This document shows, one piece after another, positions 1 through 7,453 of a DNA stretch of 10,160 nucleotides. The first letter of the stretch is position 1. Each line of letters begins with the position of its first letter. This DNA is from an uncultured Ellagibacter sp. Its GTDB lineage: Bacteria; Actinomycetota; Coriobacteriia; Coriobacteriales; Eggerthellaceae. The translations under genes and the position numbers were made by a program. The stretch is from the NCBI GenBank assembly GCA_934613165.1, contig CAKTSW010000030.1, positions 1 through 10,160 of the forward strand, given 5' to 3'. The notes beneath the pieces are model-generated. The model had not been told where the DNA came from. It saw nothing but the letters and a program-made list of their open reading frames with translations, and ran no database searches.

Positions 1-546
1 GTATTCGCTTTCGAACAGCCCGTGCGCATCGTCGACCAGGCGCGGCTGGCCGAGCTCGTAAGACAAGGGCGCCGGGTCTCCCGCCTCCTCAGCGGCCTTG
101 AGTTCCTTCTTCGTCGGGCGATACGCGGCGGCGCGGTACGTGTTGAACTCGTCTTTCTTGGTCGGGGCGGTGGCGCTTCCCCATTCAACCAGCTCATCGA
201 GGGCTTCGAGCGCCTCGTCGTTGCTTATGCGGCAGTCGCTCGCGATGTCTTCCATATTCGCCGTGCCCCGACGGTAGAGAGCTGCGAGCACCGGCTCCAA
301 ATGGGGGCTCATCTCGCCCGGTTCCATGCCGCACACCTTCGCGTATCCGCCCAAAGGGACGATGGTTATGCCGAAGCGCGTGCCGGCGCGGGTAAAGCCG
401 ATTCCCGGCCCGGGGAACCCGATCATGAACTCGGTCACGCGGACGCCAAACGCCCGCGCCGCCAAATAGTGCCCCCCTTCGTGGATGAGCACTAAAAAGC
501 CCAGGGCGATCGATACGTACACGATCATCAGGACGATATCCAGCAA
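1..546 (-). CDS. rseP: RseP-type site-2 membrane zinc metalloprotease (M50 family), N-terminal part
   Basis: Intramembrane protease that cleaves membrane-bound anti-sigma factors or signal-peptide remnants. The gene runs off the left edge, so only 182 N-terminal codons are visible. I chose a TTG start at 546-544 because GAAGGAG lies 5 bases upstream; an in-frame ATG at residue 7 is the alternative, without a comparable ribosome site. Residues 4-21 form the first membrane helix, which runs into the zinc motif HEGGH at 22-26 (the HExxH of M50 proteases). The stretch GFPGPG (43-48) and PLGGYAKVCGM (64-74) match the conserved region after the first helix. Residues about 83-130 are an unusual helix-rich segment resembling a winged helix, followed by a charged linker, before the PDZ region expected beyond the edge. 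In related genomes rseP directly follows dxr; here it is separated from it by about 5.6 kb. The family call is secure; the exact physiological substrate cannot be seen. Confidence 0.93.
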   Translation of the reverse strand, partial: MLDIVLMIVYVSIALGFLVLIHEGGHYLAARAFGVRVTEFMIGFPGPGIGFTRAGTRFGITIVPLGGYAKVCGMEPGEMSPHLEPVLAALYRRGTANMEDIASDCRISNDEALEALDELVEWGSATAPTKKDEFNTYRAAAYRPTKKELKAAEEAGDPAPLSYELGQPRLVDDAHGLFESEY

Positions 547-674
547 GGCAGCTCCTTCAAGGGAAAACGGCGCCTCAAGGCCGCAGGGTTCGAACGTAAA
601 AGCCAGCCCCAGTATAGGAAAAGAGCCGCTTCGCCCCCGCCTATTCGGGAAAAACCTACAACGTGAGCACCGCG

Positions 675-694
675 CCGTTGCCATGCCGTTGCCA
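675..694. repeat. 9-bp direct repeat CCGTTGCCA, 11-base period
   Basis: CCGTTGCCA occurs at 675-683 and again at 686-694, separated by TG. The 11-base period is about one helical turn, so two copies would face the same side of the DNA, as tandem regulator half-sites do. It could also be chance in GC-rich sequence. Confidence 0.45.
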
Positions 695-912
695 AGAGGC
701 GCCGCTCCCGGACGCATGGAACGGACAGTGGAAAACCTTGGGGTTGTCCAGGGCTCCTTCGGACAATCGTGTCGAATTCCCGTTGGAAGCGCGTTGGAAT
801 CCGTCGACCCTTGGGCGCTTTCGCCGGGCGTCCCGCTTGAAAACCCGACGCGCACACAGGCGCATCGCGCGCCCTTCCCCGCCAAACCCCATAGGTAGCG
901 TTTGAGCCCCTG

Positions 913-932
913 CGCGGGACCCTTTGCCCGCG
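913..932 (+). other. GC hairpin in the presumed 5' leader of the adhesin mRNA
   Basis: CGCGGG (913-918) pairs perfectly with CCCGCG (927-932) around an 8-base loop. It ends 15 bases before the AAAGGAG ribosome site of the leader ORF. There is no T-run after it, so it is not an intrinsic terminator. It could influence translation start or mRNA stability. No riboswitch family was recognised. Confidence 0.4.
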
Positions 933-959
933 AGCTAAACGATCGAGAAAGGAGCCCAC

Positions 960-1031
960 ATGGAAACCATTGGCACGCATTACCCCCGGGAAGGAGGCTT
1001 GACATGGAAAGCACACGCGCGTCAGGCATGA
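960..1031 (+). CDS. Possible 23-residue leader ORF overlapping the adhesin start
   Basis: An ATG at 960 has a strong ribosome site, AAAGGAG (948-954), 5 bases upstream. It opens a 23-codon frame (METIGTHYPREGG, then LTWKAHARQA) ending in TGA at 1029-1031. The frame is different from the adhesin frame. It spans the adhesin ribosome site (991-997) and the ATG at 1004. Its stop overlaps a further in-frame adhesin ATG (1028-1030) in an ATGA arrangement typical of translational coupling. The peptide itself has no recognisable function; if real, its role is probably regulatory. It could also be a decayed remnant of an earlier start site. Existence as a translated ORF is an inference from the ribosome site and the overlap. 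Confidence 0.35.
   Translation: METIGTHYPREGGLTWKAHARQA
991..997 (+). promoter_or_regulatory. Ribosome binding site deciding the adhesin start
   Basis: AAGGAGG lies 6 bases before the ATG at 1004. This selects 1004 over the upstream in-frame TTG at 902, which has no good site, and over the ATG at 1028, whose upstream bases show no Shine-Dalgarno match. The surrounding bases (GAAGGAGG then ACATGGAAA) closely resemble the leader ORF start region 44 bases upstream. Confidence 0.8.
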
Positions 1032-4000
1032 ACACACCTTCCCTCAAGACGAAAATCGCCCGGATCGCGTTGGCCGCGCTACTCGCAATCGGCATCGTTC
1101 CCGCCTGCACGTTCGCGCAGGCAGACGCCGCCGCAAACGGCAGCGCAGCCATCGAGTACATCCCCGAAGACGCCTTCACCCCGGAGGGGTTCAATTGGGG
1201 AATCAACTTCACTGACGTCCACGTCGTCAAGGGGTTCAGCGAGGAGTCGAACATCGCGCAGTTCTACCCGCGCGACTACGATGAGCTCGCGCAACCCGGC
1301 GATCCGGGGTTCGCGGCGCGCATCGGCAGATCGACCCCGAAGGGGAGTTTCGCGCTCCGCTACACCGGGGCCACGCACAAAGGCGACGTCGTCGACGCCG
1401 TCGTCACGCTCACCGACTGGAACTACGTCGAGCCCATCATGTCGAACGGGGCAACCGGGTGGGACGAGTACTACGAGCGCATCGATTACGACACTTTTCA
1501 ACCCGGCGTTTTCGCGAACGCCAACTATCAGCGCCAGGGTTCCCTCATCGAGAACTTCAACTTCTATACGGTGGGGCTCACCGACCTTGTCGTGAACGTC
1601 GAGTTCTTCTATTCCGGCACGAACGACCCTTACGAGATAAAGGGGCACGCAACGTGCATCGACCTCGACGTCGGCCAGAAATTCGGGTTCGGCGGCGCGG
1701 TCACGCTCGCGCAGGTTGTCGCGGAGAACGACTTTCTCTCGATCGACAGCGACAAACGGCTCGTCACCTCGCCGAACTACCCATGCGGGGGCGTCGACGA
1801 CCCGTACGGCGCGATCAGCGCCGACCCGAACGACCCGTTGTACAAACTCGGGCTCGTGGGCGCCTATTTCGACACCACGGGGCAGCGACGCGGTACGCCC
1901 TGCGAGCTCACGTTCGTGACGAGCTGGACGGGCATCGATTCGACGGCGCAGTCCTTCTTCGCCATGACGAACGAGTTCCTCACCGTGCCGAACCCCAAAG
2001 ATGACATCACCGACATCGGCAAGCTCAAGCTCACGAAGACGGCAGACAAGACCGAGGGCGTCTCCTTAGGGGACGTCGTCACCTACACCGTCGACGTTCC
2101 CGTGCACGAACGGGGCGTGACCTGCAGAAATGGTTACTCGTACACCGATTTCGAAATCGTCGACGTCCTGCCTGGCGAAATGCGCTACGTCGACGGGTCA
2201 GGATACCTCACCGACGACGAGGGAAGGCTCATCGAGGGCGCGGGCGAAGTCGTCTACGAAGGCCACGGAGACGCCGCAACCACCGAGAACACGGTGAAGT
2301 TCGAGTTCGCGCGCGACTACCTCGCCCAGTCCATGCGCATGCAGGGCGAGCATTACCGCTTCGTCTTCAAGGCCGTTTTAACCGAGTACCCCGCCGACGG
2401 GTCGCTTTCCGTGTCGAACCGCGCATATGCCCACGTGAACAGCAGCGGCGCGTACCTGAGCAACTCGGTCGAGACGAGCCTCGTCCCGCCGAAATGGCAC
2501 GTCGACAAGACGGCCGACGCCTACGAATACGAGGTCGGCGACGTGATCGGGTTCACGTCGGTCTTCACGCAGACCGAGAAGACCGCGCAGTGCCGCGAGG
2601 CGGTGTTTTCCGACAACCTCCCCGAAGGCATGCAGCTTATCCCCGAAACCGTTCAGGCGACGGGTATCAAGAATCTGCCCGAGCCGAGCATCAACGAGAA
2701 CCGCTGGAGCTATTCCCTCGACAAGTTCGACTACGGCGACACGTTGACCGTCACGTACCAGGCGATAGCCCTGCAGTCAGGAAACGGGGTTGAGCAGGTG
2801 AACCTTTCGGCGGCCCACGCCAACAATTGCATGGACGAAAACGACCCGGCCGAAGTCTGGACGAACACCGCGAAGCTCGACGTGCGAAAAAGCGCCGACT
2901 ACTACGAGCATTACGTGGGCGCGTCCGACGTGGATGCCGGCTACGTCGAGTACACGGTCGTAGTCGAGAACACGAAGGAGGGCACAATCGCGAACAACGT
3001 CGTGATACGCGACGCAAGCCTTCCCGAGGGGATGAAGATCGGGAAGACGAATGCGGACGACCTCGCACTCGACATCAGCAGCGTCCCCGATACGGTAGCC
3101 TACCCGACGGCAGGAAGCGACCGCGTGCACGGCGAAACGGAAACGCGCGCCGTAGCATGCAGCGTCGTCCCCGATGGGACAGGGTTTTCCGCCACCATCA
3201 ACCACTTGCCTGCTAACACCCCTGTGACGATCGTCTATCGATGCTACCCCGAGGATTCGGTTGCCGGGTGGGAAATCGAGAACACGGCCGCCGTTACCGC
3301 CGACAACGCGCTCTCGGAAGACGACACCGCCCTTGTTTGGGTGAACCAGCCAATGCTCGACGTCGAGAAAACGGCCTCGCTTTCCCAGTACACCGTCGGC
3401 GACTTCGTCACGTACCACATCAAGGCGACGAACAAGACGCCCGGAACGCTCGGCCGCAACCTCGTCATCTCCGACCTGCTGCACACCGAAGGAGTCGAAT
3501 TGCAACGCGACAGCATAAAGATCTGGGATTCGAACGGCAACGACATCACCGAGTCGTGCGATATCCGCACGAACAGGAACAAGCCGAGCTTCATCATCGA
3601 GACGCACAAGAACCTGGTAAACGATGCGGACACCCGAACGACCTGGAGTTTCGAAGAGCAGGAAACCTCCGGTAACAACCCTCTGGGCGCCACGGGTGAA
3701 ACCGCCGTGTACGTCGACTACACCGTCGCCATCGCCGACGCATCGCTTGCGGGCAAGACCGTCGACAACACCGCCCTCGCCGTGGTCGACGAGCCGAACA
3801 CCAAAACGACCGACGACGAAAGCGTCGCCGTGAAGGGGGCGAAGCTCCGCATTCAGAAACGCTCTGACAAGGCAACTTACGAAATCGGCGACACCGCTCG
3901 CTACGAGCTTTCCGTCACGCAAACGCGAGAAGACGTAACGGCTCACAACGTCGTCCTCTCCGACTCCTTCGAAGACGCTACCTGCGCGAGAATCGACATC

Positions 4001-5656
4001 GACAGCATCCGCTTGCTCGACGGCGAAGGAACCGAAACGGAGCCGAGGTCCATCGCGCCCCAAACCGACGACGAGGACCGCATTGTCGGATTCTCCTTGG
4101 AAACAGGGCTCGACCTCTCCGATGAGGAAACGCTCACCGTCGTCTACGACGCCACGATGACCGAAGAAAACGAGAGCGTGGAAAACCGCGCGCAGACATC
4201 AGCCGACGACGCGGCAGGAGATTCGACCCGCCACGACGTCGCCGTGACCGGTAAGCGGGCCGCAGCGATTCTCGAGAAGAAAGCGGAACCGGGCACGATC
4301 AGCGTCGGCGATCCCGTTTCCTATACCGTTACCGCAACGGTGACCGAAGGAAAGGCATGCAACGCCGTCGTCTCCGACAAGAGCCTCCCCGACGGGATGG
4401 CCCTCGACCTCAACAGCATTTCGGCCGAAGTGAACGGCGACGCGCTCGACCCCGCCTCCCTCGGCATCTCGGGCAACGGGTTCTCGATCGACCTCGGAGC
4501 CTTATCCGAAGGCGACACCGCGAAAGTGACGTTCACGGCGGTGGCCCGCGACCAGTCGCTCGCAGGGAAGCGAGTCGTCAACAACGCCGTTCTTTCCTCC
4601 CCCGACCTCGAGAGCGACCTCATGGCGCAGGCGATCGTCGAAGTGGAAAAAGACAAGGAGGGCCCCGAGCCTTCCGCAACCATCGAGAAGAAGGCGTCGG
4701 TGGAAACCGCCACCGAAGGCGACACCATCACCTACGCCATCAGCGTCGACGCGGGAGACGCCGATTTGGAAGACGTGTACGTCGAAGACGCGGGCATGCC
4801 CAATGGCACCTCCATCGACTACGGAACCTTCGTCTTGACGATAGACGGCAAAGCCTCGCCGGCGGTGTTCGATCGAAAGGACGCGAACTCGTTTTCGCTC
4901 TCGCTCGGCCGCGTGCCGGCGAATTCGCAGATAGTAATCGAATACGAGGCGACCGTCGAGGACGCATCGCTTATCGGGGACAAGATCGAAAACTCGGCGA
5001 CCTTGGTTTCCCGCAGCCTTGCGGACAGCTCGCACGCCAAGGCGGAAGTCGTCGTCGCGACGGCGCCTCCCACGAAAACGGATGCCGTCATAACCAAGTC
5101 GGTCGATAGGGAAACCGCACACGTTAAGGACACGCTCGCTTTCGAAATCGAGGTGAAAGCCGTTGGCGGCCCCTTGGAGAACGTCTCGATCAGCGACACG
5201 AAGATGCCCGACGGGGCGCCCATTGACTTCGGAAGCATCTCCGCCGAAGTAGACGGCGTACGAATCGATGCCCCGATCGAAAGCGACGGCAACGCATTCT
5301 CCGCAGCCATCGGGACCTTGAACGAAGGAGGCACCGCCACGATATCGTTCGAAGCTTCCCTTGAAGACGAATCGCTTGCGGGGACGAAGTTCTCGAACCG
5401 CGCGACGCTTTCAAGTCCGAGCCTCGAAGACGACAGGCTCGCCCACGCCGTCGTATCGGTCGAAGCCGAAGCCGACCCCGACCAGCCTGCTTCCGATCAG
5501 GGGCCTGGCGCCGAAACGAAAGGCACGTTGGGAAAGACGGGGGACGCGGTTTTGAGCACAGCGCTGAAAGCGCTGCCCGTCGTCGCGGCCCTTGCGATCG
5601 CCGCAACAGCCCTGGCGCTCGCGAAACGCGCCTCGCTCAAGCGGCGACGTTTCTAG
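1004..5656 (+). CDS. Large secreted, sortase-type surface adhesin with eight D2/DUF11-like repeats
   Basis: A 1550-residue cell-surface protein, likely anchored to the wall and used for attachment. Residues 1-40 are a signal peptide: basic n-region, hydrophobic core about 21-34, cleavage likely after AQA (38-40). Residues 41-340 form an N-terminal domain with motifs such as FALRYTGATHKGDVVDA, resembling the beta-rich ligand-binding heads of isopeptide-type fimbrial adhesins. Eight repeats start near residues 341, 498, 625, 785, 948, 1088, 1225 and 1361. Each opens with a Lys (345, 502, 629, 789, 952, 1092, 1229, 1365), has a mid-domain Asp in an SD-x-LPEGM-like motif, and ends with an Asn (472, 600, 760, 922, 1061, 1193, 1330, 1465). 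This fits D2-type Lys-Asn isopeptide domains. A Pro/Glu-rich linker leads to LGKTGD (1509-1514), a membrane helix about 1517-1539 and a basic tail. It is transcribed against its housekeeping neighbours. The surface-protein call is firm; ligand and isopeptide bonds are inferred. Confidence 0.9.
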   Translation: MESTRASGMNTPSLKTKIARIALAALLAIGIVPACTFAQADAAANGSAAIEYIPEDAFTPEGFNWGINFTDVHVVKGFSEESNIAQFYPRDYDELAQPGDPGFAARIGRSTPKGSFALRYTGATHKGDVVDAVVTLTDWNYVEPIMSNGATGWDEYYERIDYDTFQPGVFANANYQRQGSLIENFNFYTVGLTDLVVNVEFFYSGTNDPYEIKGHATCIDLDVGQKFGFGGAVTLAQVVAENDFLSIDSDKRLVTSPNYPCGGVDDPYGAISADPNDPLYKLGLVGAYFDTTGQRRGTPCELTFVTSWTGIDSTAQSFFAMTNEFLTVPNPKDDITDIGKLKLTKTADKTEGVSLGDVVTYTVDVPVHERGVTCRNGYSYTDFEIVDVLPGEMRYVDGSGYLTDDEGRLIEGAGEVVYEGHGDAATTENTVKFEFARDYLAQSMRMQGEHYRFVFKAVLTEYPADGSLSVSNRAYAHVNSSGAYLSNSVETSLVPPKWHVDKTADAYEYEVGDVIGFTSVFTQTEKTAQCREAVFSDNLPEGMQLIPETVQATGIKNLPEPSINENRWSYSLDKFDYGDTLTVTYQAIALQSGNGVEQVNLSAAHANNCMDENDPAEVWTNTAKLDVRKSADYYEHYVGASDVDAGYVEYTVVVENTKEGTIANNVVIRDASLPEGMKIGKTNADDLALDISSVPDTVAYPTAGSDRVHGETETRAVACSVVPDGTGFSATINHLPANTPVTIVYRCYPEDSVAGWEIENTAAVTADNALSEDDTALVWVNQPMLDVEKTASLSQYTVGDFVTYHIKATNKTPGTLGRNLVISDLLHTEGVELQRDSIKIWDSNGNDITESCDIRTNRNKPSFIIETHKNLVNDADTRTTWSFEEQETSGNNPLGATGETAVYVDYTVAIADASLAGKTVDNTALAVVDEPNTKTTDDESVAVKGAKLRIQKRSDKATYEIGDTARYELSVTQTREDVTAHNVVLSDSFEDATCARIDIDSIRLLDGEGTETEPRSIAPQTDDEDRIVGFSLETGLDLSDEETLTVVYDATMTEENESVENRAQTSADDAAGDSTRHDVAVTGKRAAAILEKKAEPGTISVGDPVSYTVTATVTEGKACNAVVSDKSLPDGMALDLNSISAEVNGDALDPASLGISGNGFSIDLGALSEGDTAKVTFTAVARDQSLAGKRVVNNAVLSSPDLESDLMAQAIVEVEKDKEGPEPSATIEKKASVETATEGDTITYAISVDAGDADLEDVYVEDAGMPNGTSIDYGTFVLTIDGKASPAVFDRKDANSFSLSLGRVPANSQIVIEYEATVEDASLIGDKIENSATLVSRSLADSSHAKAEVVVATAPPTKTDAVITKSVDRETAHVKDTLAFEIEVKAVGGPLENVSISDTKMPDGAPIDFGSISAEVDGVRIDAPIESDGNAFSAAIGTLNEGGTATISFEASLEDESLAGTKFSNRATLSSPSLEDDRLAHAVVSVEAEADPDQPASDQGPGAETKGTLGKTGDAVLSTALKALPVVAALAIAATALALAKRASLKRRRF
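2024..5464 (+). repeat. Eight tandem D2/DUF11-like domain repeats within the adhesin
   Basis: The repeats are about 157, 127, 160, 163, 140, 137, 136 and 127 residues long. They are diverged in sequence but keep the order Lys, GD-x(2)-x-Y, SD, PEG and N-x-A. Repeats 6-8 are the most alike: their Lys-Asn distances are 101, 101 and 100 residues and they share a SLAGK-like segment (SLIGD in repeat 7) before the Asn. The first five vary far more (98 to 133 residues), pointing to a younger stalk near the cell and older or more specialised modules outward. Confidence 0.8.
5528..5653 (+). other. C-terminal cell wall sorting signal, LGKTG variant
   Basis: The last 42 residues of the adhesin show the three-part sorting layout: LGKTGD at 1509-1514, a hydrophobic stretch rich in Ala, Leu and Val (about 1517-1539), and a basic tail KRASLKRRRF. 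The canonical LPxTG proline is replaced by glycine. The layout is clear; whether a housekeeping or dedicated sortase reads it is not visible here. Confidence 0.75.
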
Positions 5657-5668
5657 GTTCCGCGAACA

Positions 5669-5705
5669 GCAATGCCTCCTTGCGAAAGCGAGGCGGCTTT
5701 ATTGC
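5669..5705 (+). terminator. Probable terminator after the adhesin
   Basis: GCCTC (5674-5678) pairs with GAGGC (5689-5693) and is followed by GGCTTTATT. An outer pairing GCAAT (5669-5673) with ATTGC (5701-5705) can extend it. It begins 12 bases after the adhesin stop. The T-run is short, so termination strength is uncertain. Confidence 0.5.
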
Positions 5706-5729
5706 AAGGTTTCTTATTATTCTCGTTCC

Positions 5730-5758
5730 TTGTTCCGGTTTTATACGGTACCTTATAA
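5730..5758 (+). promoter_or_regulatory. Sigma-70-type promoter of the RHH gene
   Basis: TTGTTC (5730-5735) and TTATAA (5753-5758) are separated by exactly 17 bases in an AT-rich island within GC-rich DNA. Transcription would start near 5765, giving a 5' leader of only about 15 bases that is nearly all ribosome site. This is the best promoter match I find in the window. Confidence 0.65.
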
Positions 5759-5759
5759 A
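5740..5759. promoter_or_regulatory. 20-bp near-perfect palindrome, probable operator
   Basis: TTTATA, C, GGTACC, T, TATAAA: 18 of 20 positions are palindromic, with one mismatched pair flanking the central GGTACC. It covers the whole -10 element and part of the spacer of the RHH promoter, so a bound protein would block RNA polymerase. RHH proteins bind as dimers or tetramers to such symmetric sites and often repress their own genes; self-regulation is the natural inference. Confidence 0.6.
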
Positions 5760-5780
5760 GATACAGGAAAGGGGCGGGTA

Positions 5781-6083
5781 ATGGAGAAGTATCGGCTGAT
5801 AAACGGGTTCATCGTCCCCGCCGAGGTCGCCGGATGGGCAGACGAACCGAAAGGCACTGGTTGGGACGGCTGCGTCGAAAGCCAGCAGCCCGGGCGCCCC
5901 CGTTTGTCAGGAGAACCGAATTCCAACCTCTCGTTCAAGTGCCCCGAATCGAACGCAAGGCTGATCGCATACGCGGCGAAGATAAGCGGAACGGGAAAGT
6001 CGGCGTTCATGCGCGATGCCGTCCTCGAAAAGGCAGCCCGGGTCATTTCGATGCATCGGGCAAAGGAATCCTCCTGCGGCTAG
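5781..6083 (+). CDS. Small ribbon-helix-helix (CopG/Arc-like) DNA-binding protein, possible orphan antitoxin
   Basis: A 100-residue protein. The ATG at 5781 is preceded by the purine-rich site AGGAAAGGGG (5765-5774). The N-terminal 37 residues (with GWADEPKGTGWDG at 18-30) are of unknown role. GRPRL (38-42) is the kind of basic lead-in often seen before RHH domains. A short strand about 48-54 (SNLSFKC) is followed by two helices, about 56-69 and 73-89 (with the segment SAFMRDAVLEKA), fitting the RHH fold and recalling CopG or DUF1778-type antitoxins. No toxin gene, such as a GNAT, RelE or PIN gene, lies next to it: upstream is the adhesin, downstream the convergent dxr. A palindrome over its promoter suggests autorepression. 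It may also control the adhesin. The fold call is fairly likely; function and target are inferred. Confidence 0.7.
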   Translation: MEKYRLINGFIVPAEVAGWADEPKGTGWDGCVESQQPGRPRLSGEPNSNLSFKCPESNARLIAYAAKISGTGKSAFMRDAVLEKAARVISMHRAKESSCG

Positions 6084-6161
6084 CGAAAACTCAAACTCAA
6101 GACACCGTCCAACGATCCCTTCGCCCCTTTCCAAGCGCCGCCGAAGACGCCTCGCCCATCC

Positions 6162-6194
6162 CCCGGCGCCGCCCTAATCGAGGGCGGCGCCGGG
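6162..6194. terminator. Strong bidirectional hairpin between the RHH gene and dxr
   Basis: A perfect 14-bp stem (6162-6175 with 6181-6194) closes a 5-base loop AATCG. It lies 78 bases after the RHH stop and 9 bases after the dxr stop, between convergent genes. Neither side has a T-run, so it may act as a GC-rich roadblock, a Rho-assisted terminator or an mRNA 3'-end protector rather than a standard intrinsic terminator. Confidence 0.65.
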
Positions 6195-6203
6195 ACTGCA
6201 GCC

Positions 6204-7427
6204 TTAGCGGATGCTCTCCTTTGCCTTCGCACGGGCCCACGAATCGAGCGATTCGAGCTGTTCGAGGCTCTCAACCGTCTGCACGCCCTCGCGCTCGTGC
6301 GCCTCCATGACCGTCTCGACGCATTCGGCTATCCCGAGGTAGGTTCCCCTCTCCGCAAGGAACGCCGCAACGGCGACCTCGTTCGCAGCGTTCATGACGC
6401 ACGGTAACGTACCGCCGACGCTGCCCGCATGGCGCGCAAGGGGAAGGCAGCGGAACGTGTCCTCGTCGGGAGCCGCGAACTCGAGCGAGCCGAGCGCGCG
6501 GAAATCAAGCGGCTTCACCGGAGCATCCCACCGATCGGGATACGAAAGCGCGAACTGAATGGGGATGCGCATATCGGTCGTTCCCAAATGCGCCTTCACA
6601 CTGCCGTCGGCGTATTCGACCATGGAATGGATCGCGCTTTGCGGCTGCACCACGACCTCGATCTTGTCGTAGGGCATGTTGAAAAGATGGTGCGCCTCGA
6701 TCACTTCGAGCCCCTTGTTCATGAGCGTCGAGGAATCGATCGAAATCTTCGCCCCCATGTGCCAGGTCGGATGCTTCAGCGCCTGGGCGGGCGTGATTGT
6801 CGCGAGGTCGGAACGCTTCTTCCCCCTGAACGGACCGCCCGATGCCGTCACCCACAGTTTCGCGACCTCGCGTTCGTTCTCGCCAAGAAGGCATTGGTAG
6901 ATCGCGCCGTGCTCCGAATCGATGGGCATCAGCCCGCCCGCGGGGCCCGTCGCCGGAGCCGCACCCGCCGCGCGGCGTTGCGCGTCGACCTTCGCGGCGA
7001 GCGGCATGATCAAGTCGCCGCCAACGACAAGCGACTCCTTGTTGGCCAAAGCGAGGACCTTGCCGGCCTTGAGCGTCTCGTAGCTGGCGCGCAGCCCGGC
7101 CGCGCCCACAAGCGCGTTCACGACGACGTCGGCCTCGGGAAGATGAACAAGCTCGACGACCGCGTCCATGCCGAAGCCGATCGTCGCGATATTCCCCGAA
7201 GAGGAAACGTAAGCGGCAGCATCCGCGGCCGCCGCGCTCTGCGCTTGCCGAACGTCCCCCACCGCAAGGTGGTCAACGCCGAACTCGCGCGCCTGCGCAA
7301 GCATGTCCGGCACGCGCGTGTTGACCGCGAGACCGACGACGGCGAGCTTGTCGGCGTGCTGACGCACCACGTCGAGTGTTTGCGTTCCGATAGAACCCGT
7401 CGATCCGAGAACGACGATGCGCCTCAT
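6204..7427 (-). CDS. dxr: 1-deoxy-D-xylulose 5-phosphate reductoisomerase
   Basis: Converts 1-deoxy-D-xylulose 5-phosphate to 2-C-methyl-D-erythritol 4-phosphate with NADPH, the committed step of the MEP isoprenoid pathway. It is 407 residues, close to the usual 390-400. The ATG at 7427 is chosen because AAAGGA (7439-7434) lies 6 bases upstream and the protein then begins MRRIVVLGSTGSIG, as in the family; an upstream in-frame TTG at 7445 is unlikely. Motifs: GSTGSIG nucleotide loop (8-14), LANKESLVVGG (127-137), metal ligands D170 and E172 in PIDSEHGA and E241 in MNKGLE, the flexible-loop region TASGGPFR (194-201), and HSMVEYADGSVKAHLG (267-282). An Ala/Gly/Pro-rich insert at about 151-166 lengthens it slightly. 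It is 26 bases downstream of cdsA and likely in the same transcript. The product supplies precursors to UppS in the same cluster. Confidence 0.97.
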   Translation of the reverse strand: MRRIVVLGSTGSIGTQTLDVVRQHADKLAVVGLAVNTRVPDMLAQAREFGVDHLAVGDVRQAQSAAAADAAAYVSSSGNIATIGFGMDAVVELVHLPEADVVVNALVGAAGLRASYETLKAGKVLALANKESLVVGGDLIMPLAAKVDAQRRAAGAAPATGPAGGLMPIDSEHGAIYQCLLGENEREVAKLWVTASGGPFRGKKRSDLATITPAQALKHPTWHMGAKISIDSSTLMNKGLEVIEAHHLFNMPYDKIEVVVQPQSAIHSMVEYADGSVKAHLGTTDMRIPIQFALSYPDRWDAPVKPLDFRALGSLEFAAPDEDTFRCLPLARHAGSVGGTLPCVMNAANEVAVAAFLAERGTYLGIAECVETVMEAHEREGVQTVESLEQLESLDSWARAKAKESIR

Positions 7428-7453
7428 ATCGCGTCCTTTCCTCAAGGTAAAGG

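Follow-up and report, generated by a model that had tools for sequence, protein, structure and literature searches.

The window analysed here, a stretch of 10,160 nucleotides from an uncultured Ellagibacter sp. (Eggerthellaceae), carries a large adhesin gene and the gene of a 100-residue ribbon-helix-helix (RHH) protein between dxr and rseP, and the arrangement described in an earlier, sequence-only reading was confirmed, with both inner genes on the plus strand and both housekeeping genes on the minus strand (Table 1). The start coordinate of that reading, 960, is not the adhesin start: it is the ATG of a leader open reading frame (ORF) out of frame with the adhesin, preceded by its own ribosome-binding element, AGAAAGGAG, and the adhesin ATG lies at 1004, behind AAGGAGG.

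Table 1. Features of the window around the dxr-rseP junction (aa, amino acids)
Feature	Position	Strand	Basis or remark
rseP (site-2 protease), N-terminal part	1..537 (end about 537; start codon approximate)	-	TIGR00054, Peptidase_M50
rseP/adhesin divergent intergenic region	538..959	.	little conserved against Ellagibacter
AGAAAGGAG, first (resident) ribosome-binding element	946..954	+	exact-copy scan
Leader ORF, 23 codons plus stop	960..1031	+	overlaps the adhesin start in another frame
AAGGAGG, second ribosome-binding site, belonging to the adhesin	991..997	+	read from the sequence, scored
Adhesin (family B), 1550 aa	1004..5656	+	domain searches, motif reading
Terminator-like hairpin after the adhesin, T-rich tail	5678..5693	+	terminator scan; fold of -18.9 kcal/mol for 5660-5705
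RHH protein, 100 aa, orphan antitoxin-like	5781..6083	+	TacA1 match; no toxin-like match in the window
Strong hairpin between RHH gene and dxr, without T-run	6162..6194	.	repeat scan, folding
dxr	6204..7445	-	TIGR00243, 424 bits

The junction was surveyed across the family using a dxr search (E 1e-60), which was positive in 134 of 138 family genomes. Stretches downstream of dxr were fetched for 130 of these, G034, G110, G122 and G129 being left out as dxr lies at a contig end, and with the window a total of 131 stretches was obtained, the fetched ones varying in length. The dxr-rseP interval was tight (<350 bp) in 47 stretches, mid in 14 and long (3-10.3 kb) in 35, and rseP was inverted in one; these make up the 97 stretches with rseP. 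No rseP was found in the other 34 (L098 and L117 among them), of which 24 were read for at least 10 kb and 10 were shorter than 10 kb. A large surface adhesin occupies the interval in 29 of the 97 stretches (23 of type A, six of type B, 68 others), and six of the 35 long intervals are filled by other genes (L118, L131, L160, L173, L178 and L205). The outgroup consisted of 17 loci titled Coriobacteriia, Actinomycetota or their genera and lying outside the 138-genome set (L048, L049, L051-L054, L056-L062, L064-L066 and L072); rseP was found in 15 of them, in every case 21-148 bp after dxr. Adjacency of dxr and rseP looks ancestral, as the sequence-only reading had supposed in taking this order for a general pattern, and the genes are also adjacent in close relatives (Senegalimassilia, 184 bp; Enteroscipio, 242 bp; UBA5906, 320 bp). 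At the same 49 loci, 18 of 36 dxr-rseP junctions exceed 1 kb, compared with 0/39, 0/42 and 2/45 for same-operon control junctions. The surface proteins at the site differ among species, as that reading had proposed to check, and the same adhesin and RHH gene are not found in all relatives. One orientation is common to 26 of the 29 adhesins; among those of type A, 20 are convergent with dxr and three are reversed. The reversed ones (L155, L156 and L158), which form one small clade, lie on the dxr strand, opposite to all other occupants, and one convergent A-type adhesin, in L104 (Adlercreutzia caecimuris B7), has a broken frame, with no single long open frame in the slot.

The window adhesin begins with a signal peptide and a V-region-like head (residues about 45-340); a stalk of eight DUF11/RrgB-type repeats (about 342-1480) and an LGKTGD anchor follow. 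A hydrophobic N-terminus was found together with a C-terminal LGKTGD motif, hydrophobic stretch and basic tail, as in a secreted, sortase-anchored protein; no Pfam anchor model matched the window adhesin. DUF11 (PF01345) was matched at 112.9 bits (cut-off 24.6), TIGR04226 and TIGR01451 scored over their cut-offs, and the stalk also matched DUF7507 and DUF7927, all of which liken the protein to the DUF11 ('CLIPPER') fibrillar adhesins with isopeptide stalks. It differs from these in having the stalk joined to a V-region-like head and in its fixed chromosomal slot. A simple motif search of the stalk returned eight repeat Lys, five Asp-type and six Asn-type sequence motifs, similar to the repeated Lys, Asp and Asn motifs given for DUF11-type families in PMC12617251. 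The stalk is predicted to be isopeptide-linked, with putative Lys-Asp-Asn cross-links. The head resembles the V-region fold of antigen I/II proteins. A and P repeats are a feature of antigen I/II proteins; none were recognised in the window adhesin, whose stalk is made of the eight DUF11/RrgB-type repeats instead, and the host belongs to the Eggerthellaceae, a group that the passages on antigen I/II proteins do not name. The full-length adhesin gave no sequence match to solved structures at E 0.01.

Pfam models were assigned in 28 occupants (27 fetched ones and the window; L104 was omitted owing to its broken frame), giving TQ in 22, SpaA in 22, TED_2 in 11, DUF11 in five and AgI_II_C2 in four. 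The L020 occupant is a VaFE/SpaA/thioester protein. L047 additionally holds a signal peptidase of SipW type together with a TasA/BsaA-like protein that matched weakly (under cut-off), and L195 and L197 (= L047 and L046) carry a four-gene set of VaFE adhesin, SipW-type signal peptidase, TasA/BsaA-like protein and a protein of 1051-1063 aa. In L209 an ORF of 283 aa lies between adhesin and dxr; its beginning is signal-like and its sequence is reminiscent of a class B sortase. Relatives of type A occur in 100 of the 138 genomes. In BLASTP comparisons of A with B the alignments are confined to the two ends, signal peptide and anchor, with low score, and judged by sequence A and B are two unrelated adhesin types with no convincing homology. 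A single homologous adhesin at every site was rejected, as A and B fail to align convincingly.

The loci closest to that of the window are those of Ellagibacter (dxr 83% identical, rseP 83% over 179 residues), and the window and the Ellagibacter stretches L210 and L211 form a single clade of the rseP tree (support 99). The same adhesin lies at the same place in Ellagibacter, at 61% and 60% identity, and among the 138 genomes full-length matches were obtained in G001 and G002 only. Relatives of the head at 45-46% lie at other loci (G101, G107 and G109), and two near relatives of the adhesin, at 75-76% of the head (P0029 and P0041), have the database name 'uncultured Ellagibacter sp.'. GC and GC3 of the adhesin are those of neighbouring genes. 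A recent island was rejected on the basis of this composition, the adhesin shared with Ellagibacter and the rseP tree; carriage by a mobile element was likewise rejected, as the head has no plasmid match and no relative of head or RHH protein was confirmed in viral contigs. None of the hallmarks of an integrative island (integrase or transposase, tRNA, flanking repeat) was found in the window interval: no transposase or integrase was recognised among window ORFs of at least 60 aa (family searches covered adhesin, RHH, dxr and rseP only), the window holds no tRNA, nothing in it reached an Rfam gathering score, and no flanking repeat stands out in a repeat scan of the interval, the repeats found being mostly weak stalk repeats. 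This agrees with the sequence-only reading. Its further suggestion of an accessory surface module placed in a conserved locus is supported in part; the insertion is neither private nor recent, and adhesin and RHH gene are not one module, because in Ellagibacter the adhesin is present with only 71-72 bp to dxr and in G001 no RHH match was reported.

The element AGAAAGGAG occurs in 17 exact copies in the 131 stretches (1,421,681 bp x 2 strands). On the adhesin strand, twelve copies are no more than 900 bp from rseP; a 13th (L086) lies at an adhesin start past another gene. The element starts a frame at the dxr-rseP locus in 13 of the 17 copies, namely ten A adhesins, in frame (L086, L090, L093, L095, L100, L102, L103, L105, L108 and L116), and the leader ORF in the window, L210 and L211; the remaining four copies have no start codon 3-10 nt downstream. 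In 48 named loci (860,044 bp) there are 13 copies, eight of them before a start codon, seven at dxr-rseP and one elsewhere. Allowing one wobble within a 900-bp frame, which leaves L086 outside, the element is found in 14 of 20 convergent A and three of six B intervals, and in none of the 47 tight, 14 mid, six other or three reversed A intervals. It is absent from all 17 readable stretches around A paralogs (15) and head homologs (two) elsewhere, three of the 20 being unreadable. Compared with Ellagibacter, the region between rseP and the adhesin is poorly conserved save for the rseP-proximal end and AGAAAGGAG.

It is probable, on balance, that in many Eggerthellaceae the junction is an old adhesin site and that B replaced A there, behind the resident ribosome-binding start, in the window/Ellagibacter lineage, the RHH gene being a later addition. 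Each site would hold a single large surface protein, covalently cross-linked and anchored by sortase, whose gene usually converges with dxr and diverges from rseP. In a large part of the family, Adlercreutzia among others, the stalk of this occupant would be of the ester-bond (TQ/VaFE) kind. In the lineage that includes the window and Ellagibacter the earlier adhesin would have been displaced by one whose head is V-region-like, as in antigen I/II, and whose DUF11 stalk is isopeptide-linked. The newcomer would have brought its own ribosome-binding site, some 30-44 nt after the resident site; the latter would now start a short leader ORF overlapping the B gene and perhaps coupled to it in translation. 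The protein is most likely anchored to the wall by sortase, with a stiff stalk presenting the head, and its predicted ligand is a polymer or a glycoprotein of the host.

Several observations weigh against this account. The 14 mid (1-2 kb-class) intervals and six of the long ones hold other genes, and rseP is missing from the 24 stretches read for at least 10 kb, so that the junction is also simply breakable. The element precedes a start codon away from the locus as well (L034, a 68-aa frame) and is absent in deeper A occupants (L190, L192, L195, L197 and L202), in the reversed A occupants and in the B occupants of L186, L207 and L209; therefore, replacement behind a kept start would cover part of the family only. 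As the genomes are related, the 13 of 17 copies are not 13 independent events. An hhalign comparison of eight A with four B proteins gave a weak match of 38 columns (probability 44%, E 0.00023). For the head, Foldseek used alone returned no significant structure match (best, the Epf adhesin at E 0.1), and the GbpC model PF08363 of the antigen I/II or polymer adhesin domain proteins (SspB, AgI/II, GbpC, PrgB) does not match at E 0.1; because this match is absent, the head is said to work like antigen I/II and is not filed as a member.

Among the alternatives, it is rather unlikely that the leader ORF, instead of being left over from an A gene, is the B adhesin's own regulator, acting by attenuation or translational coupling. 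In favour of a regulator, each of the three close relatives examined keeps the leader in place 43-44 nt upstream, with an overlap of the adhesin start, even though the peptide is not conserved (L210 and L211 have the same arrangement with 16 codons). However, the three are close kin, the same test found such a leader in 0 of 22 other minus-strand adhesins, the B genes of L186, L207 and L209 lack it, and its element matches the starts of A adhesins at the same locus. Less likely still are independent insertions, lineage by lineage, into a permissive operon boundary, with a convergent ribosome-binding element. A quick-search rseP tree of 96 rows (L205 was dropped from the 97 as its rseP is unreadable; the window covers 49% of columns) gives 13 changes between intact and split dxr-rseP, which together with the unrelated genes in the 14 mid and six other intervals and the frequency of A-type adhesins elsewhere fits such insertions; on the same tree adhesin presence changes only four times (gains versus losses unrooted), and the shared orientation and the rarity of AGAAAGGAG, mostly at dxr-rseP, also speak against them.

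The RHH protein, 124 bp from the adhesin, is TacA1/RHH_1-like at residues 50-93 (TacA1 23.2 bits, cut-off 21; RHH_1 16.2 bits, under the cut-off of 20.5), and thus shares the fold region of type II RHH antitoxins. A search of 5.8 billion clustered proteins gave eleven relatives at E 0.001. Matches occur in 25 of the 138 genomes and, among the matches listed (34 places), none lies in a fetched dxr-rseP interval. Close homologs stand in tandem with a toxin-like ORF of 91-94 aa, overlapping by 4 bp (L224:1492-2057 and L230:1495-2051), a likely toxin-antitoxin pair; the L230 partner has matches beside the RHH homolog in seven of eight fetched loci (exception L227) and none in the window, whose copy is partnerless. 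The partner ORFs tested matched no Pfam, NCBIfam or PADLOC model, and an RHH defence gene was rejected as PADLOC gave no match. The adhesin/dxr junction holds a distant toxin-like and RHH pair in L095 and a HicA toxin (over the Pfam cut-off) with a helix-turn-helix (HTH) protein in L086. In our reading, the window RHH is an orphan antitoxin in a junction that accepts toxin-antitoxin genes, the three cases being few; it would have arrived later and separately, and may be a relic that lost its toxin. A dedicated adhesin repressor is improbable, for although the two genes adjoin on one strand and homologs of the RHH protein (P0007, 68%) and of the head (P0016, 87%), each with a longest contig of 190,382 bp, may share one contig, the Ellagibacter adhesin has no RHH in the junction, the RHH homologs are mostly paired with a toxin-like gene, complete toxin-antitoxin-like pairs of other types occupy the same junction and a terminator-like hairpin separates adhesin and RHH gene.

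With regard to the flanks, the rseP fragment scored 67 bits with Peptidase_M50, over the cut-off, and 64 bits with TIGR00054, under the cut-off of 147.55 as expected for a gene cut by the window edge. The regulatory signals attributed to each gene were recovered only as ribosome-binding sites and the terminator-like hairpin of the adhesin; no sigma-70-like promoter was found in 500-6400, with 0.9 expected by chance. The strong hairpin said to close off dxr is real (perfect 14-bp arms, about -36 kcal/mol whichever strand is folded). It has a T-run on neither side and was not listed by the terminator scan, and is therefore not a canonical intrinsic terminator.

The literature search returned nothing on adhesins at dxr-rseP. 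According to PMC6722419, the zmpA site of S. mitis carries an unrelated LPXTG protein at the same locus in other strains; as unrelated LPXTG proteins sharing a locus are already known in streptococci, novelty is limited to that extent. By comparison with these variable loci, the present slot spans a bacterial family, lies at a housekeeping junction and has a shared start element. More tentatively than the replacement itself, the junction may be a dedicated adhesin expression site of the family where one whole adhesin coding sequence is exchanged for another whose cross-linking chemistry is unrelated (ester to isopeptide), behind a kept start. The old start would become a coupling leader ORF, and toxin-antitoxin pairs would be gained and lost in the convergent junction. 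Little has been described of how the gut bacteria Ellagibacter, Adlercreutzia, Gordonibacter and Eggerthella attach. The fixed slot shows where to seek a new isolate's main surface adhesin, offers a comparison in nature of stalks linked by ester and by isopeptide bonds, and makes the exchange of coding sequences behind a kept start open to test.
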